The notes below the pieces were generated by a model, which was given only the letters and a program-made list of their open reading frames with translations, searched no databases and was not told where the DNA came from. Source: a virus. Taken from it: a DNA stretch of 41,581 nucleotides. Shown here in pieces: positions 14,500 through 40,438 of the stretch. The number at the start of each line of letters is the position of its first letter. Within the stretch, counting starts at the first letter, position 1. The stretch covers positions 1 to 41,581 of the IMG/VR virus record IMGVR_UViG_3300042541_002216, one strand, 5' to 3'. The position numbers and the translations under genes are program-made.

Positions 14500-16074
14500 T
14501 TATCTAATAGTAGTATATTCTAACCCATCTTTTGTTTTGAAAAACACAATGTGCTGAAACTTACCCAATCTATTTACTATTCCGTGAGCATTAACCCACC
14601 CACTAAATGATTTGTTGTAACCAACCCTTAAATGTGTACTCGTACCTACACTTACAGCACCACCAACCCGATTAATTGTATGTGAGTGACCAGTAACTGA
14701 TTTGGATGATAATCTACTATATTGTTGGATTGAACCTCTTGAACCATTAGCACCCATATGACCATGAACGCTCATCAAATATCCTTTAACCGTTACATTA
14801 CAATCATCAGTTAAACATTTAAATTTAGGGAAACGTTTATTAATCAAATATGGAACAACACCGTTGGGTGCCTCACCTTTAAGTTTTGCTGTTGCATACT
14901 CCATATAAGGCAACGCATTTTTAAATGTAACCATTTTACGCCAATCAGTTGACGCTAAAAATTGGTCAATATGTGTATCATGATTACTTTTAACAATATA
15001 CACGTTGTATTGTTTAATCTGTTCTAACCAATCAAGCATTTCTTCAACCTCATTTGATAAAGAATTTCTACCACTAACCTCTTGTTGATGTAAGATAAAT
15101 GGGTCTTTTAAGTTATGATGACTAATTGATTCAGAATCCATTATGTCATGAATAAAAAGTTTTTTAGGTTTCAACTTAGTAAATAAATCATTCAAAGTTA
15201 CATCAACAACTTCATGGTTTACATGTGCAACATGTATATCACCCATAGCACAAGCTTCAACATCTTTTTCAATATTTACCTTACCATCCTTAACATGATG
15301 GAATAAATCAATAAATTCTCCATTATCCTTAGCACCAACTTGTCTGAAAAAAAACACTTCTTCATCTTTGATTTCAACAATAGCAAAACCCAATGAATGA
15401 TGAAATTCACCCTTTTTACCAGCTTTAGATGATGTATAATTAGCGTTTGTACACGCACCAGTCGTAAACATTATTTTAGGTCGGCTACCTTCCATAACTG
15501 GAATAACTTTTAATTCCATTCTAGGGTGACCAACAACACATGAGTGGTCACCCGTCATACCTTCCAACCCTAACAATGGACTAGTAGCTGTCGGTTGAAT
15601 TGGAATGTCGGATAAGATACTTATACCATCATTTAAATCATGCCTATTTAACGTTAAGTATTTAACAATTTTAGAATCCCACCATTCTTTTTCTTCTTGT
15701 TCATTGGTGAAAACACTAGTAGGGTTTTTATATCTAAATGGTATAACTAAAATCTCAGCATCTAAAAACTCAGCATAAGCTTCCATTTCCATTAATAAAC
15801 CACCATTAACGGGTGTTGCTGATTGTGCTGATGTAATTAAAAATATTTTTTTATTACAATCATGTTTCTTAACCTTAGCTTCAGTGTATTGTTCTGGTTC
15901 TATCTCTGGTTTTTCTAAGATATCTAATTTCTTAGCCCAATTTCTAACTGTTCTTTCACCTTTACCTATCATTTTACCCAAAGAGAACATTCGTTCTTCC
16001 CATGTCAAATTTTTATCTCGGTAAATTTCCGTGAATATTTCTTTGTCTTTCTTTGTTAAATCTTTAAACTTCAT
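14500..16074 (-). CDS. HTH plus metallophosphoesterase protein, Mre11/T5 A1-like
   Basis: The N-terminus holds a helix-turn-helix-like stretch (LGKMIGKGERTVRNWAKKL, about 32-50). The rest carries metallophosphoesterase motifs in order: MGDIHVAH (277-284), HDIMDSES (309-316), SNHDTHID (363-370, SNHD in place of GNHD), SVHGHMG (435-441) and TGHSH (461-465). The 524-residue size and layout recall T5 protein A1, an Mre11-like nuclease thought to degrade host DNA; this comparison is from memory. It could act on host DNA or in recombination. A promoter variant (TAAATTTG) lies upstream, just inside the end of the sigma-factor gene. Confidence 0.7.
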   Translation of the reverse strand: MKFKDLTKKDKEIFTEIYRDKNLTWEERMFSLGKMIGKGERTVRNWAKKLDILEKPEIEPEQYTEAKVKKHDCNKKIFLITSAQSATPVNGGLLMEMEAYAEFLDAEILVIPFRYKNPTSVFTNEQEEKEWWDSKIVKYLTLNRHDLNDGISILSDIPIQPTATSPLLGLEGMTGDHSCVVGHPRMELKVIPVMEGSRPKIMFTTGACTNANYTSSKAGKKGEFHHSLGFAIVEIKDEEVFFFRQVGAKDNGEFIDLFHHVKDGKVNIEKDVEACAMGDIHVAHVNHEVVDVTLNDLFTKLKPKKLFIHDIMDSESISHHNLKDPFILHQQEVSGRNSLSNEVEEMLDWLEQIKQYNVYIVKSNHDTHIDQFLASTDWRKMVTFKNALPYMEYATAKLKGEAPNGVVPYLINKRFPKFKCLTDDCNVTVKGYLMSVHGHMGANGSRGSIQQYSRLSSKSVTGHSHTINRVGGAVSVGTSTHLRVGYNKSFSGWVNAHGIVNRLGKFQHIVFFKTKDGLEYTTIR

Positions 16075-16094: not shown

Positions 16095-16125
16095 CAAATT
16101 TACTAATTTAAAAATTAGGTTTCAA
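16095..16125 (-). promoter_or_regulatory. Promoter of the A1-like gene
   Basis: TTG, 20 bases, TAAATTTG (TAnnTTTG) on the minus strand, about 20 bases upstream of the start. The -33 part lies inside the sigma-factor reading frame. Confidence 0.6.
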
Positions 16126-16644
16126 CTTTAATAATGAATTTTTCATCTTTTTTTTAGCCTTATATAGATTACTTTTAGATGTACCCTCATTTATACCTAA
16201 TATTTCACCAATCTCTTTATGTTGTTTTCCTTCAATATAATATAACTTAACAACATCACGATATTTTGGCGTTAAATCATTTATAACATTAGTTAAATCA
16301 CCATAGAAAACTGTATATATAGATGGTTCTTCAATTTCCTCACTGAAACCATCATAAAGTTCAACACATTGAGCTCTTTTTAAAGACCTATGATGGTCCA
16401 TGGCTTTATTTCTGGCGATTGTTAACAACCAGTTTCTAACTTTACCAATGGTTTTACCATCAAATTTATGTATATTTTTAAAACAACTAATGAAAGTCTC
16501 TTGACTTAGTTCATTTATTGTATCATCATCCATAGTATACTTACCACAAACCAATTTAACATTATTATAGAACATGTTAAACAATAACCTTTGCGATTTT
16601 GGGTCGTTACCAATACAACCTTCCATAATTAATTCTATACTCAT
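16108..16644 (-). CDS. ECF-type sigma factor
   Basis: The 178 residues have both ECF regions: sigma-2 (NELSQETFISCFKNIHKFDGK...VRNWLLTIARNKAMDHHR, about 43-87) and sigma-4 (LTPKYRDVVKLYYIEGKQHKEIGEILGINEGTSKSNLYKAKKKM, about 125-170) with its helix-turn-helix. There is no region 1 or 3. It should direct host RNA polymerase to a phage-specific promoter class different from TAnnTTTG. No anti-sigma domain gene is adjacent, but a 41-residue membrane protein lies upstream. It appears to share an operon with prs. Confidence 0.88.
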   Translation of the reverse strand: MSIELIMEGCIGNDPKSQRLLFNMFYNNVKLVCGKYTMDDDTINELSQETFISCFKNIHKFDGKTIGKVRNWLLTIARNKAMDHHRSLKRAQCVELYDGFSEEIEEPSIYTVFYGDLTNVINDLTPKYRDVVKLYYIEGKQHKEIGEILGINEGTSKSNLYKAKKKMKNSLLKLKPNF

Positions 16645-16692: not shown

Positions 16693-16818
16693 TTACTCAT
16701 TGTCTAAACTAATAAATAAAATAAATACTAACCAACCCCAACCTTCTAATCCATTGGCCGCTAGGTATACAATACCACCCACTAGTGCTAATTGTAATAT
16801 TCTTAATGATGATATCAT
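16693..16818 (-). CDS. 41-residue membrane protein
   Basis: A short reading frame starts at an ATG overlapping the prs stop codon (ATGA). It encodes one long hydrophobic region (RILQLALVGGIVYLAANG and GWLVFILFISL) that forms one or two membrane helices, ending in DNE. The overlap supports translational coupling. It lies between prs and the ECF sigma factor, and a role as a membrane anchor or anti-sigma peptide is conceivable but unproven. Confidence 0.6.
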   Translation of the reverse strand: MISSLRILQLALVGGIVYLAANGLEGWGWLVFILFISLDNE

Positions 16819-17810
16819 ATGCTTTCTTTTTTAATTGATTTTAATGCATCATAGCTTAAACCTAAATTGTTAGCGGCTATTGCCATTCCAATTTGTTCAG
16901 ATACACTTATAACTACGATTTTCTCATGTACCATAGACTCTAATGAATCACTAATAACCAACTCAGTCAATAATGATTCATCAATACGATTATACGCTGG
17001 ACCAGATAACACACCATGACTAATGATTGCTCTAACACTTTTAGCCCCATTTTCGATAAGAACCTCAGCCGCTTTGCATAGAGTACCAGCAGTATCAACA
17101 ATATCATCCAATATAATAACATCTTTACCATTCACATCACCAATGATAACCATTTCATCAATTATATTGGCTTCTTTACGTGTCTTATCTAACATGACAT
17201 AATTAAACTCTAATCCATGTTTGTTAAACAATTGGTCTTTCATACGTTTAACACGTTTTCCACTACCAGCATCTGGACCGCATAAAATAATGTCATTTAA
17301 GCCACTATCTTTCAATAGATGGATATAGTCATCAAAAACATTTTTACCTTCGATGTGGGTCACTGGAATCTCAAAAAACCCTTGTATTTGGTCAGCATGT
17401 AAATCATAAGTTATAATACTAGTAGCACCCAACGCTTCAAGTTTCAAGGCCATAACCTTAGCACCTATTGGTCCACGCGATTGGTCTTTTTTATCACTTC
17501 TCTGATATGGGAAGTATGGTAGAATAACAATTATTTCTTGAGCGGCACCACGCTTAGCTGCATCAATAGCTAATTCCAATTTAATGATTTCATCAGATGT
17601 ATTCGGACTTGACAAGATGTATACACGTTTACCACGAACAGAATCAATAAAATCAACACATAATTCACCATCTGAAAACTTTTGGCTTCTTAGGTAACCC
17701 ATTTCTATGTCTTCTTCTGGTGATTTAAAGTTCCATGAATTTGTTGCTTTAATTATTTCTTTTGCGATGTGTTCTCGACCATCTAAGGAGAACAATAGTG
17801 AATTTATCAT
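16815..17810 (-). CDS. prs: Ribose-phosphate pyrophosphokinase (PRPP synthetase)
   Basis: Prs makes PRPP from ribose 5-phosphate and ATP. Motifs: the ATP loop YQRSDKKDQSRGPIGAK (102-118), the catalytic DLHADQIQGFF (136-146), CGPDAGSGKR and the PRPP loop LDDIVDTAGT (234-243). The 331-residue length is normal. PRPP would feed the nicotinamide phosphoribosyltransferase 4 kb downstream. Known phage NAD+ reconstitution systems include a Prs-like enzyme that pyrophosphorylates ADP-ribose instead (Adps of NARP1), which sequence alone does not exclude. The NMN adenylyltransferase favours the PRPP route. A TATCTTTG element lies upstream. Confidence 0.9.
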   Translation of the reverse strand: MINSLLFSLDGREHIAKEIIKATNSWNFKSPEEDIEMGYLRSQKFSDGELCVDFIDSVRGKRVYILSSPNTSDEIIKLELAIDAAKRGAAQEIIVILPYFPYQRSDKKDQSRGPIGAKVMALKLEALGATSIITYDLHADQIQGFFEIPVTHIEGKNVFDDYIHLLKDSGLNDIILCGPDAGSGKRVKRMKDQLFNKHGLEFNYVMLDKTRKEANIIDEMVIIGDVNGKDVIILDDIVDTAGTLCKAAEVLIENGAKSVRAIISHGVLSGPAYNRIDESLLTELVISDSLESMVHEKIVVISVSEQIGMAIAANNLGLSYDALKSIKKESI

Positions 17811-17825
17811 ATTTTTTAGTTTTTA

Positions 17826-17833
17826 CAAAGATA
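17826..17833 (-). promoter_or_regulatory. Promoter -7 element (TATCTTTG) before prs
   Basis: TATCTTTG fits TAnnTTTG about 16 bases before the prs start. The -33 element is poor, so activity is uncertain. Confidence 0.4.
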
Positions 17834-17864
17834 AATAAAATATTTGTTTATACCTAATAATTAA

Positions 17865-18008
17865 TTATTTATTTTTTTGTTTATAATGATAACCTATAAA
17901 CATAAATAATATTATCATTATTACAACAAATAAGAACTTAATAAATATAAATAACCCTAACAAAACTGATAGGGTTATAAAGATAAAGATAAGTTTAACC
18001 TTATCCAT
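17865..18008 (-). CDS. 47-residue membrane protein
   Basis: The frame begins at an ATG overlapping the stop of the upstream gene (TAATG) and encodes two closely spaced hydrophobic stretches (LIFIFITLSVLLGLFIFIKF and LFVVIMIILFMFIGY) with a HYKQKNK tail. It is probably a hairpin membrane protein. Function unknown. Confidence 0.6.
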   Translation of the reverse strand: MDKVKLIFIFITLSVLLGLFIFIKFLFVVIMIILFMFIGYHYKQKNK

Positions 18009-18373
18009 TACTTAGACTTTACTGCTCTCCAATTTCTATCGTGATACTGAGTAGCATAACTACCTAATTCAAAATTACCGTTGAACATAATAACATCCAA
18101 TGCCAAAGGTAATTCATTATATAGTTTATCCCACCCATCTTTTTGTTCTTTAGAATATTCAACTATTTCTTCCATATTGAAAGGGTCAAAATCTTCTGGC
18201 ATACCATTAAGGATAAGGTCAATGGCCTCATATAATGTATTCTCACCAAATGGTGCTGGGTCTTCTTCTTCGTTTTCTGTTCCAACGATAAAACCTTTAT
18301 CGTTCACACTCCATTTTAAGTGTTTTAACAACTTAATATGGTCTTCTGTTAATGTAATTCTTAAAACACTCAT
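18008..18373 (-). CDS. Hypothetical protein
   Basis: The 121-residue soluble acidic protein begins SVLRITLTEDHIKLLKHLKW, with GFIVGTENEEEDPAPFGENTLYEAIDLIL in the middle. No family was recognised with confidence. Overlaps of 1-4 bases tie it to the SET gene upstream and the small membrane protein downstream. Function unknown. Confidence 0.6.
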   Translation of the reverse strand: MSVLRITLTEDHIKLLKHLKWSVNDKGFIVGTENEEEDPAPFGENTLYEAIDLILNGMPEDFDPFNMEEIVEYSKEQKDGWDKLYNELPLALDVIMFNGNFELGSYATQYHDRNWRAVKSK

Positions 18374-18666
18374 AAATTAGGGTTATAAAATGTGTATTTA
18401 GCTGTTAATTCTTCATCAGCTTTTATATCTGTTATTGTTTTTAAATAAATGAAATCATCGGTATATATTACCTCACAATTAGGTGTTTCTGAATGGTTAA
18501 AGAACCCACCCAATGGTGTTCTAGAATAACCATTATCAAATCTATCATCCTTGATGTGAGTAACACCTAAAATTGTATTGTTAGGTATATTGGAAACAGA
18601 AAATAACCCTAAGCCATCAATATTTGATGACTTAATGGTTAATTCTGATGGTAAAGGTCTGTACAT
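18370..18666 (-). CDS. SET-domain protein (putative lysine methyltransferase)
   Basis: The 98 residues are little more than a minimal SET domain: DGLGLFSV (17-24) for the GxG motif, SRTPLGGFFNHSETPNC (48-64) including the NHS pseudo-knot residues, and DEELTAKYTFY (84-94) with the catalytic Tyr at 91. SET enzymes transfer methyl groups from SAM to lysine, mainly in eukaryotic histones; small prokaryotic and viral members are known. There is no pre- or post-SET cysteine cluster. The substrate may be a host or phage protein. It overlaps its downstream gene by 4 bases. Confidence 0.8.
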   Translation of the reverse strand: MYRPLPSELTIKSSNIDGLGLFSVSNIPNNTILGVTHIKDDRFDNGYSRTPLGGFFNHSETPNCEVIYTDDFIYLKTITDIKADEELTAKYTFYNPNL

Positions 18667-18674
18667 TCTGATAA

Positions 18675-19061
18675 TTAAAATGGTAAATCATCATCACTAT
18701 CATCAAATTGAGTGATTGTTGTTTTAGGTGCTGTTTTAGTAGCAGTTTTAGTTTCTTTAGTTTGTTTAGCTTCAAACTTCTTTTCTTCTTCAGCCGTAGC
18801 AATAGCAACACCTCTTAAATTAGTGAAGTACTTATCTTGCCATTCACTACCTTTTAATTGGAATAAGATTTTAACTCTATCCCCTTCACTGATTTCATCA
18901 AGTTTGTTTATCCCATTCTCATCAGTAAATTCAAACTTGATGTGTTCTGGATATTGTTCCTCAGTTGATACTACAATTTCTCTCTTCTTGAAATTGTTTT
19001 TAAATTCTTGTGTGTCAAAGATTACTTTAACCACACCTTCAAACGGTAAATACTTTTCCAT
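18675..19061 (-). CDS. DUF3127 protein, single-strand-binding-like
   Basis: The 128-residue protein has an OB-like N-terminal domain with KKREIVVSTEEQYPEHIKFEF (about 25-45) and GDRVKILFQLKGSEWQDKYFTNL (about 61-83), which are DUF3127 hallmarks. A Lys/Thr-rich linker (TKETKTATKTAPKT) and an acidic tip DDSDDDLPF follow, as in SSB proteins that recruit partners. It probably binds phage single-stranded DNA. DUF3127 is largely restricted to Bacteroidota and their phages, supporting the host assignment. A complete promoter precedes it. Confidence 0.8.
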   Translation of the reverse strand: MEKYLPFEGVVKVIFDTQEFKNNFKKREIVVSTEEQYPEHIKFEFTDENGINKLDEISEGDRVKILFQLKGSEWQDKYFTNLRGVAIATAEEEKKFEAKQTKETKTATKTAPKTTITQFDDSDDDLPF

Positions 19062-19082
19062 GTTTATTTATTTTAATTTTAA

Positions 19083-19113
19083 CAAATATACCACTTATTT
19101 TATTAATAAGCAA
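19083..19113 (-). promoter_or_regulatory. Bacteroidota-type promoter of the DUF3127 gene
   Basis: TTG, 20 bases, TATATTTG on the minus strand, about 22 bases before the start. Confidence 0.7.
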
Positions 19114-19124
19114 TATATTCTTAT

Positions 19125-19850
19125 TTAATTTGCTAATAATTCATCAACTATCTCAGTTACACCTTCAACAGCACTCTTCATAACGTATTCTACATTTAAC
19201 CCATAGTTATCTAAGTAACGCATTGGTACTGGGTCTATGTATATTATTCTGCATGGGTTAGATGTATCAGATACCGTTTGTCTAACATTGTTTAACATAT
19301 CCAAAGTGTAGCTTATCTGTAAACTAGTACCAACAATCAATAACACATCAGCATTATAAACAGCGTCATACGCTTCATCAACTCTATATGGTATCTCACC
19401 AAACCAAACAATATCTGGTCTTAATTGTGAATCCGTCTCAGGACACTTAACACCTAATTCAATATCATTGTAACCAATAGTGTATTTATTCTTCTTGGTC
19501 ATCACATCACAAGCTTTGGTTAATTCACCATGCAAGTGTATAATGTTTTTTGAACCACCTCTTTCCAATAAATCAGATACATTTTGTGTTACGTTAATAA
19601 CATCATATTTGTCTTCTAATTTACTTAAAGCGATATGTGCAGCATTAGGTTGAACCTCTGGCATTTGTTTTCTACGTTCATTGTAAAAATCCAATACTTT
19701 ACTTCGGTTTTTTCTCCATCCGTCTATGGTTGCAACCTCATCAACTTTGTAGTTATTCCATGTTGAATTAGAACCACCTCTAAATGTTTCAATGCCACTC
19801 TCAGCATCTAACCCAGCACCACTAAAAATAACAATTTTTTTCTTACTCAT
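19125..19850 (-). CDS. Sir2-family NAD+-dependent deacylase
   Basis: The 241 residues match CobB/SIRT5-type sirtuins: GAGLDAESGIETFRG (11-25), the acyl-specificity FYNERR (55-60), TQNVSDLLERGG (88-99), the catalytic HLHGEL (His 107), RPDIVWFGE and VGTSLQISY. The enzyme uses NAD+ to remove acyl groups and yields nicotinamide, the substrate of the salvage enzyme NadV at 21.4 kb. Unusually, the Asp of TQNxD is Ser 92, which could weaken deacylation or shift it towards NADase or ADP-ribosyl activity. Only two cysteines remain around the zinc site. Its start overlaps the upstream gene by 4 bases. Confidence 0.88.
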   Translation of the reverse strand: MSKKKIVIFSGAGLDAESGIETFRGGSNSTWNNYKVDEVATIDGWRKNRSKVLDFYNERRKQMPEVQPNAAHIALSKLEDKYDVINVTQNVSDLLERGGSKNIIHLHGELTKACDVMTKKNKYTIGYNDIELGVKCPETDSQLRPDIVWFGEIPYRVDEAYDAVYNADVLLIVGTSLQISYTLDMLNNVRQTVSDTSNPCRIIYIDPVPMRYLDNYGLNVEYVMKSAVEGVTEIVDELLAN

Positions 19851-20236
19851 AATCTATCTTTTATTTTTTTTAACTTTTCGTCAACACGTTTATTAACCTC
19901 TTCCTCAACTAATCTGGTTATTACTCTTTCTATAACTTTTTCACTTATCTGATTAAACTTGTCTTCAATAAAACCATTTAACCTATTTTCAAAAATTTCT
20001 AATTTTAATGTAACATCAGTATTGGTTTTCATTTTATAATTAACAACAATGTCATCTAAGTGTAAATCCAATTCATTAATGAATAATTCCCTAATAACCT
20101 TTTTAGCTTCACTAGGTCTCATAACAACCAAATCACCCTCTTTATTTTCGAAACTTAAAACATCTTCATCAATCTTTATTTCACTTAATGATTTTCGATA
20201 ATTATTAAATTCAGATAGGTTTATTATTTTACCCAT
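19847..20236 (-). CDS. Hypothetical helical/coiled-coil protein
   Basis: The 129-residue protein has a mixed N-terminal half (SEFNNYRKSLSEIK...GDLVVMRPSEAKKVI) and a long charged helix at the C-terminus (EDKFNQISEKVIERVITRL...KRVDEKLKKIKDRL) likely to form a coiled coil. It overlaps the sirtuin gene by 4 bases and the upstream HAD-like gene by 8. Function unknown. Confidence 0.55.
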   Translation of the reverse strand: MGKIINLSEFNNYRKSLSEIKIDEDVLSFENKEGDLVVMRPSEAKKVIRELFINELDLHLDDIVVNYKMKTNTDVTLKLEIFENRLNGFIEDKFNQISEKVIERVITRLVEEEVNKRVDEKLKKIKDRL

Positions 20237-20657
20237 GATTTATTAAATAATGATACACATCACTCCACTCAGATTCACCCAAAAAACCAGCTTTATCTTC
20301 AAACAAAACATTCATATATGGTTTTTTATCATAGTTACCATAACCTTCCATATTGGTAGGTATCTCTGGGTTTTCATTCACATAATCAAATCTAATACCA
20401 TTTAATTTAAAATATTCCAAATATAACTCAATTTCATGTGGGTGTGAGCATGTGTATAATATCATAACAACATCTTCCATACCACTTATAAATTGAAGGG
20501 TTGTTCTAGCAAATGGGTAAAAATCTTTAGGTATATTCCCAGATTCATAATTAGGTTTTAGTATCGTACCATGGATATCAAATGCAAAATACATTTTATC
20601 AAAACCCTTTTCTTCTTTTTGTTTATACGCTTTTTCTATAGCTTTTACTACACTCAT
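20229..20657 (-). CDS. HAD-like protein with a DxHGT motif
   Basis: The 142-residue protein has MYFAFDIHGTILKPNY (about 22-37), the HAD motif I with the second Asp replaced by His, then LYTCSHPHEIE in place of motif II and VLFEDKAG as a motif IV-like end. Loss of the general-acid Asp should reduce phosphatase activity, so it may be a phosphotransferase, a binding protein or an altered hydrolase. Similar DIHGT proteins are common in large phages (from memory). It lies between dCMP deaminase and an unknown gene. Confidence 0.65.
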   Translation of the reverse strand: MSVVKAIEKAYKQKEEKGFDKMYFAFDIHGTILKPNYESGNIPKDFYPFARTTLQFISGMEDVVMILYTCSHPHEIELYLEYFKLNGIRFDYVNENPEIPTNMEGYGNYDKKPYMNVLFEDKAGFLGESEWSDVYHYLINHG

Positions 20658-20662
20658 AATCT

Positions 20663-21097
20663 TTATATTAAACTTATTTCAACTTTAGCTTCTTCCAACA
20701 TACGTATCGCAGCCTTAAAATGTTCACCCCATTTTTCATGGTCAACATCTGGTGTTGGTGCAACGACTCTTTTTATACCACTCTGTATAATACCCCTAGC
20801 ACAATCAGAACAACAAAACATTGTAACATACATACTACAACCCTTAAGACTAACCCCATGTCTAGCAGCATGATACAAAGCATTTCTTTCAGCGTGCTCT
20901 GTATATAAGTATTTATGTGGTTTTTCATATCTACATTCAATCGAATCATCACACCCTCTAGGAAATCCATTATAACCCATTGATAATACAATATTGTCTT
21001 CATCAACAATTACAGCACCTACTTTTGTGTTGGTATCCTTGCTCCAGCTAGCAACCAAGTTTGACAATTCTATGAATTTATTATCCCAATTCCCCAT
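20663..21097 (-). CDS. dCMP deaminase
   Basis: dCMP deaminase converts dCMP to dUMP for thymidylate synthesis in phage infection. The 144-residue protein has the zinc site HAERNA (68-73; His 68, Glu 70 as proton shuttle) and CCSDCARGII (95-104; Cys 96 and Cys 99). The usual Pro before the first zinc Cys is Cys 95. GYNGFPRGCDDS after the N-terminal KVGAVIVD matches the ComEB/dCMP-deaminase family. Two bases separate it from the upstream gene. Confidence 0.9.
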   Translation of the reverse strand: MGNWDNKFIELSNLVASWSKDTNTKVGAVIVDEDNIVLSMGYNGFPRGCDDSIECRYEKPHKYLYTEHAERNALYHAARHGVSLKGCSMYVTMFCCSDCARGIIQSGIKRVVAPTPDVDHEKWGEHFKAAIRMLEEAKVEISLI

Positions 21098-21098
21098 T

Positions 21099-21356
21099 TT
21101 ACTTTCTCAAGAATTTATATTTAACAACTAACCCACTATGTACTTTATCTTTGTATGGTGAATCAAAGTACGTCTCAACATCATATAATATAACACCTTC
21201 AACATTATCATATCTAGGGTCGTTTAATAACATACCATTCTTACGGCTAATCCATTCTACCAATGTTTCTTCAACTTTAAGTGTTTCAGTTCTAATCGTG
21301 TAAACTGATGATGGAATTTTTAACGCATCTTCTAATTTTTCAAATACTACTTTCAT
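21099..21356 (-). CDS. Hypothetical protein
   Basis: Read from MKVVFEKLEDALKIP, 85 residues; a start 15 bases upstream would place the ATG inside the promoter region and is rejected. The sequence is mixed alpha/beta, with WISRKNGMLLNDPRYDNVEG and DVETYFDSPYKDKVHSGLVV. No family was recognised. It is first in a unit with dCMP deaminase. Confidence 0.55.
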   Translation of the reverse strand: MKVVFEKLEDALKIPSSVYTIRTETLKVEETLVEWISRKNGMLLNDPRYDNVEGVILYDVETYFDSPYKDKVHSGLVVKYKFLRK

Positions 21357-21360
21357 GTTA

Positions 21361-21391
21361 CAAATATACAATTATTTTTTTAAATAATCAA
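21361..21391 (-). promoter_or_regulatory. Bacteroidota-type promoter of the dCMP deaminase unit
   Basis: TTG, 20 bases, TATATTTG on the minus strand, five bases upstream of the ATG at 21356. Confidence 0.7.
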
Positions 21392-21442
21392 CGTTTTAAT
21401 GGGTTAAATTTAACTATGGTTACATCCTAACCTTCTAAATAC

Positions 21443-23029
21443 TTAAGCATGTTCAATTAATTTATTTATCTTTATCTTAGCTCTTTCTCTGATGTCTTCG
21501 AACGTATGGTCAACAAGGATTTCACCCATTCTAAACACTTCTACAAGCTCATCTTTAACATCGTTATAGTCAGCATCCATTGATGTTACTGTACGGTATG
21601 TACCATCGTCATTCTTAACCAATTTAAGCTTACCTTGTTTTGATTTCTTGAATGATTTTGTGATGTTACCATCAGCATCCATTTCTGTTGGTGACTTAAC
21701 AACATTTTTCTCTTCACCATCTAATATAGCATAAGATGCTTTGGTTGCAAAGTTATTTGTATCACGATTGATATCAGCTTGTAATAACTTACCACCCATA
21801 CCCAACGCTAAGTTCTCTGGAGATATTTTCTCTTCTTCTAAAAACGCATAGATTTCACCAATAGAATCCAAATTAACACCGTCACCTTGTATAACACGTA
21901 CTTGTGGTGGTAACACTTTATAACCGTTTTCATTTACTGTGTAACCAAATTTATCAAACAATATATTGAAAATTTCACGTAATGTGTTGATAACGTGACC
22001 AGAATCTGGTCTAATAACCAACTGATTACCTAGCTCTGCTGGACGAGATAATATAAGGTCACGTAATTCAGTGCCCCATTTTTCAGAACATGCTTTGAAA
22101 ATGTTGAATGAATCAGATACGCAAGCAACGATTCCAGTTGGGAAAAGAGTAAGTACTCGTTTCATCAATTCCAATTCACCTTCTTCACCTTTAAGTGTCA
22201 TGATTGAGTGTTCTGTTGCTGGAATGGATAAACCATAGATTGTTTCAGTATTATAAACATCTTTGATTAATTGAGATGCAACGATTGTATCAGAACCTCT
22301 AAAGTTAACTAAATGTGCTGACCCACCAATCTTAGCTGATTGTACAGATGATACACCTCTGAATCCGAAATCATTCAATACGAAGTCAACCAAGAAATCG
22401 ATTGTGGTCTCATCATATGTCGTACAGTTATGAAATGATTTGGTAACGATTTTACGAACTTCACGTGATAGCGTAGCCACAGTTATTGGATACCAAACTT
22501 GTAATAGAATTGACTCTAAGAAGTTTGTTAACCAAGCACAATTATCATCCAATGATTCAATTGTAAATAATACGTTTTTAGTTCCGATAACTGAACCCTC
22601 TGGAACTGCTTTGATACTGATAGGTAACTTACCATCGTATTTCTCAACGATATAATCGAATTTACTTCTATCGAATACATCATCACGACCAAACACACCA
22701 AGCTTAGTTCCAAGCAATTCATATGCTTCATCAACTTCTTCTTTGGTAATAGCAATACCTTCAAGATATTGTTTCAATACGATTTGAAGACCATAGAAAA
22801 CTGTCTCTGAAAACTTACCACCTCGTGATTCCAAATAAGAAATCATTTTGGTCATCTCAGCACCATAAAATTTGTGGTGAGAGAACTTGTAGGCATCAGT
22901 ACATAGAATAAGGTTATCTGGTTTTGTTAATACCTTTGTTAGATATTTTTGCATTTCTTCAATACTAGCCCAATCTTTAGTTGCAATTGCACGTTCTAGT
23001 TTTCTTGCTAAGTTTCTCTGTAAACTCAT
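21443..23029 (-). CDS. nadV: Nicotinamide phosphoribosyltransferase
   Basis: NadV (Nampt) joins nicotinamide and PRPP to give NMN. The 528 residues show CTDAYKFSHHKFYG (about 43-56), YLESRGGKF, DFGFRGVSSVQSAKIGGSAHLVNFRGSDT (about 223-251), the phosphate-binding RPDSGH (about 342), IQGDGVNLDS and GMGGKLLQADINRDTNNFATK. About 35 extra N-terminal residues form a charged helix not found in most homologues. It shares an operon with the SLOG gene and natV. In NARP1-type systems a related enzyme uses ADP-ribose pyrophosphate instead of PRPP; the adjacent NMN adenylyltransferase argues for NMN here. Confidence 0.92.
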   Translation of the reverse strand: MSLQRNLARKLERAIATKDWASIEEMQKYLTKVLTKPDNLILCTDAYKFSHHKFYGAEMTKMISYLESRGGKFSETVFYGLQIVLKQYLEGIAITKEEVDEAYELLGTKLGVFGRDDVFDRSKFDYIVEKYDGKLPISIKAVPEGSVIGTKNVLFTIESLDDNCAWLTNFLESILLQVWYPITVATLSREVRKIVTKSFHNCTTYDETTIDFLVDFVLNDFGFRGVSSVQSAKIGGSAHLVNFRGSDTIVASQLIKDVYNTETIYGLSIPATEHSIMTLKGEEGELELMKRVLTLFPTGIVACVSDSFNIFKACSEKWGTELRDLILSRPAELGNQLVIRPDSGHVINTLREIFNILFDKFGYTVNENGYKVLPPQVRVIQGDGVNLDSIGEIYAFLEEEKISPENLALGMGGKLLQADINRDTNNFATKASYAILDGEEKNVVKSPTEMDADGNITKSFKKSKQGKLKLVKNDDGTYRTVTSMDADYNDVKDELVEVFRMGEILVDHTFEDIRERAKIKINKLIEHA

Positions 23030-23042
23030 AATGTTTGATTTA

Positions 23043-23378
23043 TTATATTTTTATTATTATAACTTCCTTACCTAACTTTTCAGCTTTGGTAATACTATCT
23101 TTGGTGCCTCGACTCTCATTGTCCCAAAATGCTATGATAGTATCAGCATTGTTAACGATATCCGTATTTCTAAGAGGGCCAGCAGATGGTCCATATTTTT
23201 TCCAATCTGGTTTAAATATAAGTGTTTCAATGTTGTTTTCATTTGCGTACCGTTCACCTAACGAATCGGCACCTTTGGCACCTCCACTAACTAATAGTGT
23301 TATATCGATATTGGATAATGTTTCTTTAACCAATTCATAATCATCAAATGTTCTACTACCAATCACTGCTACTTTCAT
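23043..23378 (-). CDS. SLOG-superfamily protein (DUF2493/YspA-like)
   Basis: The 111-residue Rossmann-like protein begins MKVAVIGSRTFDDYE, with LLVSGGAKGADSLGERYA (about 28-45), PDWKKYGPSAGPLRNTDIV (about 58-76) and a C-terminal GKEVIII strand. GSR, SGGAKGAD and GPxRN mark the DUF2493 branch of SLOG, which binds nucleotides or their derivatives. It overlaps natV by 4 bases and precedes nadV by 13, so it is embedded in the NAD+ salvage operon. Binding or hydrolysis of ADP-ribose or an NAD-derived signal is plausible but not shown. Confidence 0.8.
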   Translation of the reverse strand: MKVAVIGSRTFDDYELVKETLSNIDITLLVSGGAKGADSLGERYANENNIETLIFKPDWKKYGPSAGPLRNTDIVNNADTIIAFWDNESRGTKDSITKAEKLGKEVIIIKI

Positions 23379-24340
23379 GCTATACTATTATCGTATTTAA
23401 CGTTAGCTTCTTCCAATATTTTATTTTTATCCATATAAACACATAAATTAGCGTACAAGTCTCTATGTTCAACCATAATATCTCTATCTACATTGATATC
23501 TTTAGGTTGAACCCAATGGAGACTTTCAATATCATCAGATGGTTCAATACGACCCCATAAGAATTTACCAATAAATAATGTGGTCATAATACCAGATTCT
23601 GTATTTGCATATCTCCAATCGTTTATAGCACCACTACAAACATATCTAACATCACCAATTTCAGCGTTACCACCAGTTTCTTCTCTAAACTCACGTTTTG
23701 CAGCTAACTCCCAATTCTCATCAGTTCTATCAACAAATCCACCTATGAATCGATAAAAATCCTCATTGGGTTTCTTAGCCAATAGAATCTGTCCTTTATC
23801 GTTATATACAGTGATATCTACTGTTGGGTATGTTACTGGTCTAGCAGCGTAGTTTGCGTGAATTACACCAGCTCTAAAGTCCTCAGAAGCTAATATTTCT
23901 TTGGATACTTGTTTCCGCATTTCAGTACCACTATAGATAATATCAGTTGTTAATTCAATCGTTGGGTATTTACCGTGGTAATAAGGTATGAATGATTCAC
24001 GACTACCATATAAAACAGCAGTTAAATCACCAAAAGGTGTTTTAATTTCAGTATCTAAGTTTTGTGACCATTTAATATCAGAACGATTATCTTTGTGTGG
24101 TAATACAATGATATTAGGATATTGCTCTTGTATCATTGCTTTTCTAGTGGCAAAATCCAATGGGTTTGATTTAGTATTACTCACAATAGGCACACCTAAA
24201 AAGATAATAACTTTCTTATGGTTAGAACAAACAGTATCAATAACCTTAATATGACCTTCATGTAATTTATGCACTTGAAAACGAGCCACTATAACCCCGA
24301 TTTGATATTGTGATGGGTCTAACTCTTGTTTAATTTCCAT
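23375..24340 (-). CDS. natV: Bifunctional NMN adenylyltransferase/Nudix hydrolase
   Basis: The 321 residues join two domains. The N-terminal nucleotidyltransferase (about 1-170) has VIVARFQVHKLHEGH (14-28), with the HxGH-like site, and YSGTEMRKQVS (about 131-141); it makes NAD+ from NMN and ATP. The C-terminal Nudix domain (about 185-310) has GGFVDRTDENWELAAKREFREETGG, one residue longer than the standard box before the first Glu. The same domain order is found in phage KVP40 NatV and the Slr0787 family, where the Nudix domain cleaves ADP-ribose. It is first in an operon with the SLOG and nadV genes, behind its own promoter. Confidence 0.92.
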   Translation of the reverse strand: MEIKQELDPSQYQIGVIVARFQVHKLHEGHIKVIDTVCSNHKKVIIFLGVPIVSNTKSNPLDFATRKAMIQEQYPNIIVLPHKDNRSDIKWSQNLDTEIKTPFGDLTAVLYGSRESFIPYYHGKYPTIELTTDIIYSGTEMRKQVSKEILASEDFRAGVIHANYAARPVTYPTVDITVYNDKGQILLAKKPNEDFYRFIGGFVDRTDENWELAAKREFREETGGNAEIGDVRYVCSGAINDWRYANTESGIMTTLFIGKFLWGRIEPSDDIESLHWVQPKDINVDRDIMVEHRDLYANLCVYMDKNKILEEANVKYDNSIA

Positions 24341-24359: not shown

Positions 24360-24390
24360 CAAATATATACAAAAAATCCCAGTAATGCAA
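24360..24390 (-). promoter_or_regulatory. Bacteroidota-type promoter of the NAD+ salvage operon
   Basis: TTG, 20 bases, TATATTTG on the minus strand, about 19 bases before the natV ATG. The -33 TTG falls in the loop of the terminator hairpin at 24376-24401, so the promoter and the upstream terminator share bases. Confidence 0.7.
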
Positions 24391-24537: not shown

Positions 24538-24711
24538 ATGAAAAAAACAAGAGACAGGTCACTACATAATAAAAAAGAAAAAACTGATTCAATGACATTT
24601 AGAATTGAACCAGAATTAAAAAAAGAATATCTCGAATATTGTGAAAAAAATGGGTGTTCATATGGTAAGAAAATAAGATTATTAATTAAAAAAGAATTAG
24701 GGTATGAGTAA
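24538..24711 (+). CDS. Ribbon-helix-helix protein
   Basis: The 57-residue plus-strand protein has a basic N-terminus and then DSMTFRIEPELKKEYLEYCEKNGCSYGKKIRLLIKKEL, which fits a CopG/Arc-type ribbon-helix-helix: one strand then two helices. Such proteins are DNA-binding repressors. It overlaps the endonuclease gene by 8 bases and probably controls the element it belongs to. The gene is too short for many gene finders. Confidence 0.65.
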   Translation: MKKTRDRSLHNKKEKTDSMTFRIEPELKKEYLEYCEKNGCSYGKKIRLLIKKELGYE

Positions 24712-25639
24712 TAAAATAACAACCGAAGAATTTATTACTAAAGCTAAATTTATTCATGGTGATAAATACATTTATTCCTTATCATTATATACAACATCTA
24801 AAGATAAAATTAAAATCATATGCCCTATTCACGGTGAATTTGAACAAACACCTAACGCTCATTTAAGTCATAAAGGTTGTGTAGAGTGTGGGATTGAAAA
24901 TCGAAGCAATTCTAAAACTAAAACAAATGATAAATTCATAAATGAAGCTAAATTAGTTCATGGTGATAAATATGATTATTCATTATTAATTTATAAGACT
25001 GAAAAAACAAAAGTTAAAATCATATGTCCTATTCATGGCGAATTTGACCAAACACCTAAAGCACATTTATTGGGTGGGTGTCGTAAGTGTGGTAGAAAAA
25101 TATGTGGTGATAAATTACGTACAAATTACTCAGATTTTATCGACAAAGTACATAACATACATGGTAATAAATACGATTATTCATTGGTAAAATATAAAAA
25201 TATGGACACTAAAATTAATATTATTTGTCCTATCCATGGAATTTTTAAATGTACACCAAAACATCACATATATTCTAAATCTGGTTGTTCAATGTGTAAT
25301 GAATCTAAAGGTGAACGTGAAATTAGGGAGTTTCTAACAAAAAATAAAATTAGATTTACCTATCAACATAAATTTACCAATTGTAAAAACAAAAAAGAAC
25401 TACCATTTGATTTTTATTTACCAGATTACAATACATGTATAGAGTATAATGGAAAACAACACTACGAAATAAATCATTTCTTTGGTGAAGAAGCTTTTTT
25501 ATTAACTCAAAAAAACGATAAAATAAAAATGGAATATTGTCATGCTAACAACATTCCATTATTTATAATTAAATATGATGATGACGTTATCAATAAATTA
25601 TCAACTAACTTTAAAACCAAGACCACCCCTATCAACTGA
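24704..25639 (+). CDS. Putative homing endonuclease, three DUF723 repeats plus VSR-like domain
   Basis: The 311 residues contain three repeats of about 60 residues (near 18-62, 83-127 and 146-190), each with HG(D/N)KYxYSL, ICPIHGxF and a CxxC pair, the DUF723 zinc-binding DNA-recognition repeat. The C-terminus (about 200-300) has SKGEREIREFL, FDFYLPDYNTCIEYNGKQHY and a following K/E-rich helix, the EDxHD/VSR-type endonuclease pattern. Phages carry such enzymes as selfish homing genes. It is on the plus strand against its neighbours, and its 3' end overlaps the 3' end of the AAA+ gene by 39 bases. Confidence 0.8.
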   Translation: MSNKITTEEFITKAKFIHGDKYIYSLSLYTTSKDKIKIICPIHGEFEQTPNAHLSHKGCVECGIENRSNSKTKTNDKFINEAKLVHGDKYDYSLLIYKTEKTKVKIICPIHGEFDQTPKAHLLGGCRKCGRKICGDKLRTNYSDFIDKVHNIHGNKYDYSLVKYKNMDTKINIICPIHGIFKCTPKHHIYSKSGCSMCNESKGEREIREFLTKNKIRFTYQHKFTNCKNKKELPFDFYLPDYNTCIEYNGKQHYEINHFFGEEAFLLTQKNDKIKMEYCHANNIPLFIIKYDDDVINKLSTNFKTKTTPIN

Positions 25640-39385: not shown

Positions 39386-40438
39386 TTAAATTGTTACAGT
39401 TAATTTAAAAAACATTTCTCTCGCTTTTGCTGAAATATATTTATTAACCTCTTTTGGTTCAATTTTGTTTTCAACCATAGTGTCCATTTCCTCTTTTATA
39501 ACATCATTTACAACCCATCTAATGACATCACCCAACTTTTTGGTATCAATGGGTTCTTGGTTAGGGAATACGTTCTCAATAGCTTGGTTGAATCTATTTT
39601 CTGTCACAGCATACTCAACAAACTTTTGAATGCTTTCTAACTTTTCAACATCAACACTTGCTAGTGTTTTAACCTTAGAACTAGAGTGTTTTTCACCCTT
39701 GGATTTGAATTTATACGCAACACCTTTATAGTCAGCACTAAAAACAATACCTTCACCAATAGTATTTGGAAAACCAAAAGCTTTAGCGACTGGACATTCT
39801 TCCTCAACAGCAATAGTCATAGCAATTAAATCATTTTGGACCAATTGTGGCATGTTGAAATCGATATCAATATAATATGTTGTATAATCCTCTATATTAT
39901 AGATACCTTTATCATTATCACGTAAATAAGAACTATCCACCCAATATGCTGGGTTGGCTCTTAATTCTTCTTCTGTTTCTGTATGTGGTGTAATCTTAAC
40001 ACCGAAAATAAAGAAAGACTTAGGTATGTTGGTAATACCGACACCTTTCTGTATAGATTTACCAGCCCATTCCCCGTAGATAGAAATTGTATTTTTATGT
40101 AAGTCAATATTTTCTTTAGCAGCAACATCAAAAAATAATCTTAATAATTCTGTTTCGTGAGAATACGCAAAGAATGCGAACCCAGCGTTATCTTTTTCTG
40201 GTGTAATTATATTCTCACGTGATTGAGCCCACATACCACTAAGTGCATTGTGAGACACACATCCATTTGTTCCGTGTAATTTTACAGTTCCTTTAAACGT
40301 AATCACTGGTTTAGGTAAAGTAGGGTCATAGATTGCATCACCATTTTCATCCAAACCAACAAAATTAAAATGCCTATTAACATTAGAAACAATATTTCTA
40401 AATTGTTCAATAGACGGATACTTTATCATCTTTTTCAT
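39386..40438 (-). CDS. RNA ligase, Rnl2-like
   Basis: The 350-residue protein has nucleotidyltransferase motif I KLHGTNG (lysine 53, the AMP acceptor), motif III-like IYGEWAGKSIQKGVGI (120-135), motif IV EGIVF (229-233) and motif V YKFKSKGEKH (242-251). The set is that of Rnl2-type RNA ligases, which seal nicked double-stranded RNA or repair cut tRNA. A C-terminal helical domain (about 255-350) follows. It is preceded by a full promoter. Together with RlaP, 2H and HAD phosphatases it may reverse tRNA cleavage by host anticodon nucleases. Confidence 0.9.
   Translation of the reverse strand: MKKMIKYPSIEQFRNIVSNVNRHFNFVGLDENGDAIYDPTLPKPVITFKGTVKLHGTNGCVSHNALSGMWAQSRENIITPEKDNAGFAFFAYSHETELLRLFFDVAAKENIDLHKNTISIYGEWAGKSIQKGVGITNIPKSFFIFGVKITPHTETEEELRANPAYWVDSSYLRDNDKGIYNIEDYTTYYIDIDFNMPQLVQNDLIAMTIAVEEECPVAKAFGFPNTIGEGIVFSADYKGVAYKFKSKGEKHSSSKVKTLASVDVEKLESIQKFVEYAVTENRFNQAIENVFPNQEPIDTKKLGDVIRWVVNDVIKEEMDTMVENKIEPKEVNKYISAKAREMFFKLTVTI

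Follow-up and report, generated by a model that had tools for sequence, protein, structure and literature searches.

Phage KVP40 encodes a pathway for the salvage of nicotinamide adenine dinucleotide (NAD+), the function of which has been demonstrated (Lee et al. 2017, as cited in PMC13282480). Two NAD+ reconstitution pathways of phages, NARP1 and NARP2, have been reported to counter the depletion of NAD+ by Thoeris (review PMC12043709). Iyer et al. have described networks of NAD+ and ADP-ribose genes in large phages that include SLOG, SIR2, NADAR, Macro and Nudix domains together with NadM and NadV. The location of NADAR beside NadM/NadV is already described in these papers, and a role of viral SLOG proteins in countering cyclic ADP-ribose (cADPR) is proposed there (PMC7824862, PMC9503650). 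The stretch of DNA analyzed here, referred to below as the window, comprises positions 1 to 41,581 (41,581 nucleotides) of IMG/VR virus record IMGVR_UViG_3300042541_002216. It carries genes for a ribose-phosphate pyrophosphokinase (Prs), a nicotinamide phosphoribosyltransferase (NadV) and an adenylyltransferase/Nudix protein (NadM, also called NatV), with a SLOG gene and a sirtuin gene between them. With a probability of about 0.8, these genes represent a phage-encoded nicotinamide salvage of the NARP2/KVP40 type that has its own Prs, and its likeliest use is the upkeep of NAD+ in infection.

The five open reading frames (ORFs) of the module all lie on the minus strand, at the positions where the first-pass annotation had put them:

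23375-24340, minus strand: NadM, nicotinamide mononucleotide (NMN) adenylyltransferase fused to a Nudix domain, 321 amino acids
23043-23378, minus strand: SLOG protein of the YspA/YAcAr family, 111 amino acids
21443-23029, minus strand: NadV, nicotinamide phosphoribosyltransferase of the Nampt type, 528 amino acids
19125-19850, minus strand: sirtuin, CobB-like (PF02146, E 2.3e-36)
16815-17810, minus strand: Prs, ribose-phosphate pyrophosphokinase (TIGR01251, E 1.7e-78)

These positions confirm that the SLOG gene is located between nadM and nadV, and the sirtuin gene between nadV and prs. Like the KVP40 pathway and NARP2, the window combines a Nampt-type NadV with an NMN adenylyltransferase/Nudix protein. 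It differs from KVP40 in the following: 1) the KVP40 NadV is only ~38-40% identical to that of the window; 2) the KVP40 genes are unclustered, with SLOG at ~90 kb, NadV at ~138 kb and the sirtuin at ~23 kb of the record. No Prs was found in KVP40 with the window Prs as the query. NARP2 is taken here in a working definition that draws on reviews, and the sequence features by which it is recognized, a Nampt-type NadV with the catalytic His and a pocket of the phosphoribosyl pyrophosphate (PRPP) type plus an NMN adenylyltransferase, are present in the window.

The single NadM sequence matches the Pfam family CTP_transf_like weakly (E 1.4e-3, under the cut-off) and NUDIX with E 2.1e-12. A profile of the family, built from 46 viral relatives, aligns along the full length with the structures 2qjt and 2qjo, which are bifunctional NMN adenylyltransferase/Nudix proteins (E 4e-49 and 4e-48). 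The motifs HEGH and SGTxxR and the Nudix motif REFREETGG are present, and the AlphaFold2 model has a predicted local distance difference test score (pLDDT) of 92.7. NadV matches the profiles PRK09198 (E 4.6e-154) and NAMPT_N (E 4.9e-28) and, among solved structures, the Nampt entry 6tac of the PDB (E 1.5e-120). It keeps the phospho-His motif PATEHS as well as IRPDSG and DFGFRGVSS, bears an N-terminal extension of 37 amino acids that is common to its clade, and falls in the tree among phage NadVs, KVP40 included. Prs matches solved Prs chains with E 2.9e-60, retains the ribose-5-phosphate/PRPP loop DDIVDTAGT (pattern DDxxDTxGT) and the motif DLHADQIQGFF, and groups with the Prs of other huge phages, apart from the bacterial copies included. 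The Prs-type and Nampt-type motifs and the trees thus give the order of the pathway: Prs, then Nampt, then the NMN adenylyltransferase. The complete route from nicotinamide to NAD+ that the first-pass annotation had read from these three enzymes is supported. In all five genes, the ratio of nonsynonymous to synonymous substitution rates (dN/dS) against relatives is 0.05-0.23 (0.10-0.16 for NadM, 0.10-0.20 for SLOG), indicating purifying selection. An origin of the genes as housekeeping copies of the host was rejected, as both NadV and Prs fall with their phage counterparts in the trees; the test is partial, because the NadV tree took in phage sequences and left out cellular NadV.

The remaining features between NadV and the sirtuin, and the promoter-like sites, are as follows:

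24360-24390, minus strand: promoter-like site TTG-N20-TATATTTG, 20 bases before the nadM start
21361-21391, minus strand: promoter-like site after nadV, ahead of the run of genes from orf90 to the sirtuin
21099-21371, minus strand: small ORF downstream of NadV, likely start ATG at 21356, with a distant homologue in the related locus L016 and no match in family searches
20663-21097, minus strand: dCMP deaminase (PF00383, E 1.2e-25; phrog_174, E 9.8e-49)
20229-20657, minus strand: HAD-like protein, BT0820-like (NF046079, E 5.9e-7, under the cut-off; phrog_1238, E 4.2e-11), kept across the lineage
19847-20236, minus strand: conserved ORF that overlaps the sirtuin start by 4 bases, with homologues at the same place in relatives

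The motif TTG-N18..20-TA[TA][AT]TTTG (TATATTTG) occurs at 17 sites on the minus strand, ranging from 973 to 40491, compared with 1.4 expected from shuffles, and at one site on the plus strand. It resembles the Bacteroidota promoter, which consists of TTTG at -33 and TAnnTTTG at -7. Most relatives have similar sites near NadM, and several have one directly before Prs. The reading frame of SLOG begins within that of NadM, with ATGA as the overlap, and 13 bases separate SLOG from NadV. This spacing, together with the positions of the promoter-like sites, suggests that NadM, SLOG and NadV are probably made from one transcript, and the sirtuin and Prs from others. Thus, the operon proposed in the first-pass annotation has support for nadM-SLOG-nadV alone: the sirtuin lies behind another promoter-like site, and Prs follows a gap of 197 bases.

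The SLOG protein matches PF10686 (YAcAr) with E 1.3e-16 and 60.6 bits, compared with a cut-off of 28.2. A search of the single sequence against solved structures gave no match and a profile search gave weak DprA matches, so that the fold was settled by structure comparison. The AlphaFold2 model (pLDDT 97.5) resembles YpsA (Z 13.5), DprA (Z 13.0), ThsA (6lhx, Z 12.0) and LOG with AMP (Z 10.3); against the SLOG domain of ThsA with bound 3'cADPR (7uxs), Z is 9.6. The likeness to the SLOG domain of ThsA, the Thoeris effector, is in the fold (Z 9.6-12.0 over 109-111 residues), whereas the sequence is only 14-15% identical and the SIR2 fusion is absent. The comparison of the model supports a SLOG fold and does not single out a ligand. 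Viral SLOG domains have been proposed by Iyer et al. to act on cADPR-type signals or ADP-ribose derivatives (PMC9503650). The window SLOG is a reasonable candidate for such an actor, no more.

The interval between nadM and nadV serves as a cargo slot. Among the 23 non-redundant loci in which NadV is at least 60% identical to that of the window, 10 have SLOG in the slot and the others hold a P-loop ATPase, unrelated genes or nothing; SLOG is therefore an optional partner of the salvage. In phages outside the lineage (L150, L151, L153, L155 and L161), the slot holds a Macro-domain gene. The presence of SLOG changes 5 times on the NadV tree and 4 times on the NadM tree. As only some members of the lineage have SLOG in the operon, and the homologues next closest to it are found elsewhere, membership in the operon is weak evidence for a shared function. 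A general co-occurrence of SLOG and NadV outside the lineage was looked for among SLOG relatives and was not found. In L004 (8087-9583) and L118, a glutamate-synthase-like (flavin mononucleotide) gene is inserted between NadM and SLOG.

The nearest DNA and proteins belong to the uncultured huge phages LR756504 (636 kb) and LR756502 (642 kb) and to IMG/VR contigs of up to 369 kb. The phage sirtuins form a single clade (100/99) among Bacteroidota sirtuins, and of the 80 nearest cellular loci, all but a few come from Bacteroidota. The window belongs to a lineage of huge phages, and the placement of the sirtuin and the form of the promoter point to a probable Bacteroidota host. The usual gene order of the lineage is AAA-NadM-(SLOG)-NadV-(NADAR-Macro)-(dCMP deaminase)-HAD-SIR2-Prs; the window itself is without NADAR and Macro. 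Near 78 viral NadV loci, a count that takes in near-copies and loci cut by contig ends, NadM was found 66 times, Macro 28, SIR2 21, Prs 20, NADAR 18 and SLOG 14 times. The window NadV shares 87% identity with the NadV of L003 and 65% with that of L016, whereas the pattern is opposite for NadM (66% and 79%) and SLOG (66% and 83%), which argues that NadV has been exchanged separately from NadM and SLOG. Between the AAA gene and NadM, on the plus strand (24704-25639), the window has a DUF723 ORF with repeated motifs, relatives of which occur in L007, L013 and L015 and are missing in others; it looks like a mobile, possibly endonuclease-like gene.

By combining these data, the likely course of the pathway can be described. 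Prs would convert ribose 5-phosphate and ATP into PRPP, which NadV would join to nicotinamide to give NMN. The adenylyltransferase half of NadM would then form NAD+ from NMN and ATP, and its Nudix half may cleave molecules that resemble ADP-ribose. The level of NAD+ would most likely be held in this way during infection, also when NADase defences of the host free nicotinamide and ADP-ribose. The SLOG protein, predicted to be cotranscribed, probably binds or hydrolyzes a host-made derivative of ADP-ribose. It is an optional add-on in the nadM-nadV slot; in relatives, this island also encodes Macro and NADAR proteins.

The following observations weigh against this description. The ATP loop of the window Prs reads FPYQRSDKKD (codons 100-109, 17482-17511, minus strand), with QRS in place of the ARQ of the consensus (F/Y)xYARQD, so that full activity of this copy is not certain. 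ARQD is found in all 9 lineage relatives compared, including L015, whose Prs is 96% identical and differs in six of the nine bases of the three codons. The change is private to the window Prs and stands among five genes that are under purifying selection; the gene-wide dN/dS of Prs (0.08-0.23) argues, at the level of sequence, that the gene is maintained. The window copy may be impaired, or the variant bases may be a fault of the assembly. Furthermore, L015 (14.7 kb), which matches the window at 94-97% identity in most genes of the island, keeps NadM, SIR2 and Prs without SLOG, NadV and the small ORF, and no fragments of these are left: NadM runs straight to the dCMP deaminase (L015:6000-6030). 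The phage can thus live without the pathway, unless NadV is located elsewhere in the L015 phage genome. Finally, the need for NAD+ in replication would account for these genes even if no host defence were involved. That the module gives metabolic support alone, by increasing NAD+ for the replication and ligation of the phage, and takes no part in counter-defence, is possible but rather doubtful. Alongside are the dCMP deaminase, further genes of nucleotide metabolism and a DUF3127 protein that matches a single-strand DNA-binding family of phages, and reviews offer the same interpretation for the NAD+ genes of jumbo phages. The island of the relatives, however, adds Macro, NADAR and SLOG, domains whose expected role is to act upon derivatives of ADP-ribose and not to provide NAD+.

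The first-pass annotation had also allowed for a Prs of the Adps type. In such a NARP1 pathway, the Prs-like enzyme would pyrophosphorylate ADP-ribose and NadV would be a Namat that makes NAD+ directly. The enzyme folds are homologous and the genes are paired in both cases, and relatives of the window Prs and NadV do form pairs in phages with NARP1, for example ICP1 and felixounavirus-like phages, but the motifs that determine substrate specificity differ in both proteins. Adps homologues read DDI(A/C)DG and D(P/T)HS where the window Prs has its DTAGT loop and DLHADQIQGFF. The Namat selectivity motif GSxxxxxTRD (PMC12774641), seen as GS...TRD in the homologues of ICP1, FBKp34 and Sf13, is replaced in NadV by GMGGKLLQ...NRD (GMGGKLLQADINRD). 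In the trees that the annotation had called for, the Adps and Namat groups, represented by ICP1 NrsA/NrsB (equated with Adps/Namat in PMC11559045) and the homologous pairs of phages Sf13 and FBKp34, split off the window proteins with 100/100 support for both enzymes. As the three Adps branches are long, the motifs, which are independent of the tree, weigh more. NadM, which NARP1 does not need, is present as well. By sequence, Prs is a ribose-5-phosphate Prs and NadV a Nampt, and the Adps/Namat alternative, rejected on the trees and motifs of both proteins, is very improbable. A repair of RNA that depends on NAD+, in which the sirtuin and HAD or Macro proteins clean RNA ends and the salvage refills the NAD+ spent, is decidedly unlikely. 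Iyer et al. (2022) propose sirtuin-based RNA repair beside Swiss-army-knife (SAK) HAD phosphatases. A protein of the HAD_SAK_2 type, or one like it, is encoded in the relatives L002, L003 and L016, the region includes Thg1-like proteins, and the window has an RNA ligase (39386-40438). This ligase is 15 kb distant, though, the SAK-type HAD is absent from the window interval, the sirtuin groups with CobB-like deacylases of Bacteroidota, and no 2H or cREC protein was recognized nearby, where no search was aimed at them. That SLOG is a passenger, a common phage gene that landed in the slot by chance and is unrelated to NAD+, has a real chance of being correct, if somewhat below even. Among 80 SLOG relatives, NadV or NadM lies within ~8 kb of only 10, and each of these shows the NadM-SLOG-NadV arrangement; SLOGs that are 66-69% identical (L170-L176) are located away from NadM/NadV; 849 phage records hold a relative; and its presence changes 4-5 times on the two trees. 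On the other hand, SLOG recurs in the slot with overlapping frames and a low dN/dS, and the Macro domain that takes the slot in other phages is another ADP-ribose-binding family.

The solved structure nearest to the sirtuin is that of E. coli CobB (1s5p, E 7.2e-40). The protein keeps the catalytic His (HLHGEL, an HxHG motif), TQN and GAG. It reads GAGLD for the canonical GAGxS and TQNVS for the canonical QNxD, a reciprocal exchange of Ser and Asp. By its profile, the protein is still a sirtuin homologue in which only the canonical pocket is altered. The exchange (GAGLD with TQNV(S/T)) is present in 12 of 28 viral rows, the window and 11 others, with the window, L002, L006, L015, L016, L090, L096, L166, L244 and L254 named among the carriers; the other 16 rows have GAGxS and TQNxD, as do all 75 cellular relatives examined. 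A relative with the canonical residues, ~70% identical, is found in L104. Both positions change together without exception in the rows examined. The tree requires at least two changes, although it included the two exchanged columns and recombination among phages could mimic independent origins. In PMC4518038, the equivalent Asp120 of SpySirTM contacts the amide of nicotinamide, which places the exchange in the nicotinamide pocket. The class M sirtuins (SirTM) described there share with relatives of the window the proximity of a sirtuin and a Macro gene; they have QG where the window sirtuin has HG with the catalytic His, and that text does not give the Ser/Asp exchange as a trait of SirTM. It is unlikely, though conceivable, that the phage variant arose at least two independent times to alter the handling of nicotinamide and that it forms, with NadV as the remover of nicotinamide and with SLOG, Macro and NADAR, one closed phage-tuned cycle of NAD+ and ADP-ribose.

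The core pathway, the class of the system, most of the neighboring domains and similar neighborhoods were known or predicted before (Iyer 2021, 2022). The position of SLOG between NadM and NadV, which the first-pass annotation considered new, or a variable slot there, did not come up in a search of the running text, figures aside, of PMC7824862 and PMC9503650; the occurrence of SLOG, SIR2, NADAR, Macro and the salvage genes in jumbo phages is known from the same papers. We found no earlier description of the cargo slot or the recombination pattern, and none of use on the exchanged sirtuin residues in the open-access literature. The window places a full route from PRPP to NAD+ in a lineage of huge phages. 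The repeated acquisition of ADP-ribose-related genes, SLOG or Macro, at the nadM-nadV junction gives a short list of candidate anti-Thoeris or anti-NADase proteins, and the exchanged Ser/Asp pair poses a clean two-residue question on sirtuin catalysis.

In PADLOC, NadV, SLOG and the sirtuin were without a match, and the weak matches of Prs to PsyrT (E 5.6e-6), of the dCMP deaminase to a dCTPase and of the AAA protein to IetA were set aside as shared domains. In the region between Prs and the sirtuin, the window has a small SET-domain protein (18370-18666; PF00856, E 1.9e-9). A protein of 524 amino acids (14500-16074), which lies downstream of a sigma-70-like factor (16108-16644), matches phrog_1745, annotated as a DNA transfer protein (E 3.8e-139).

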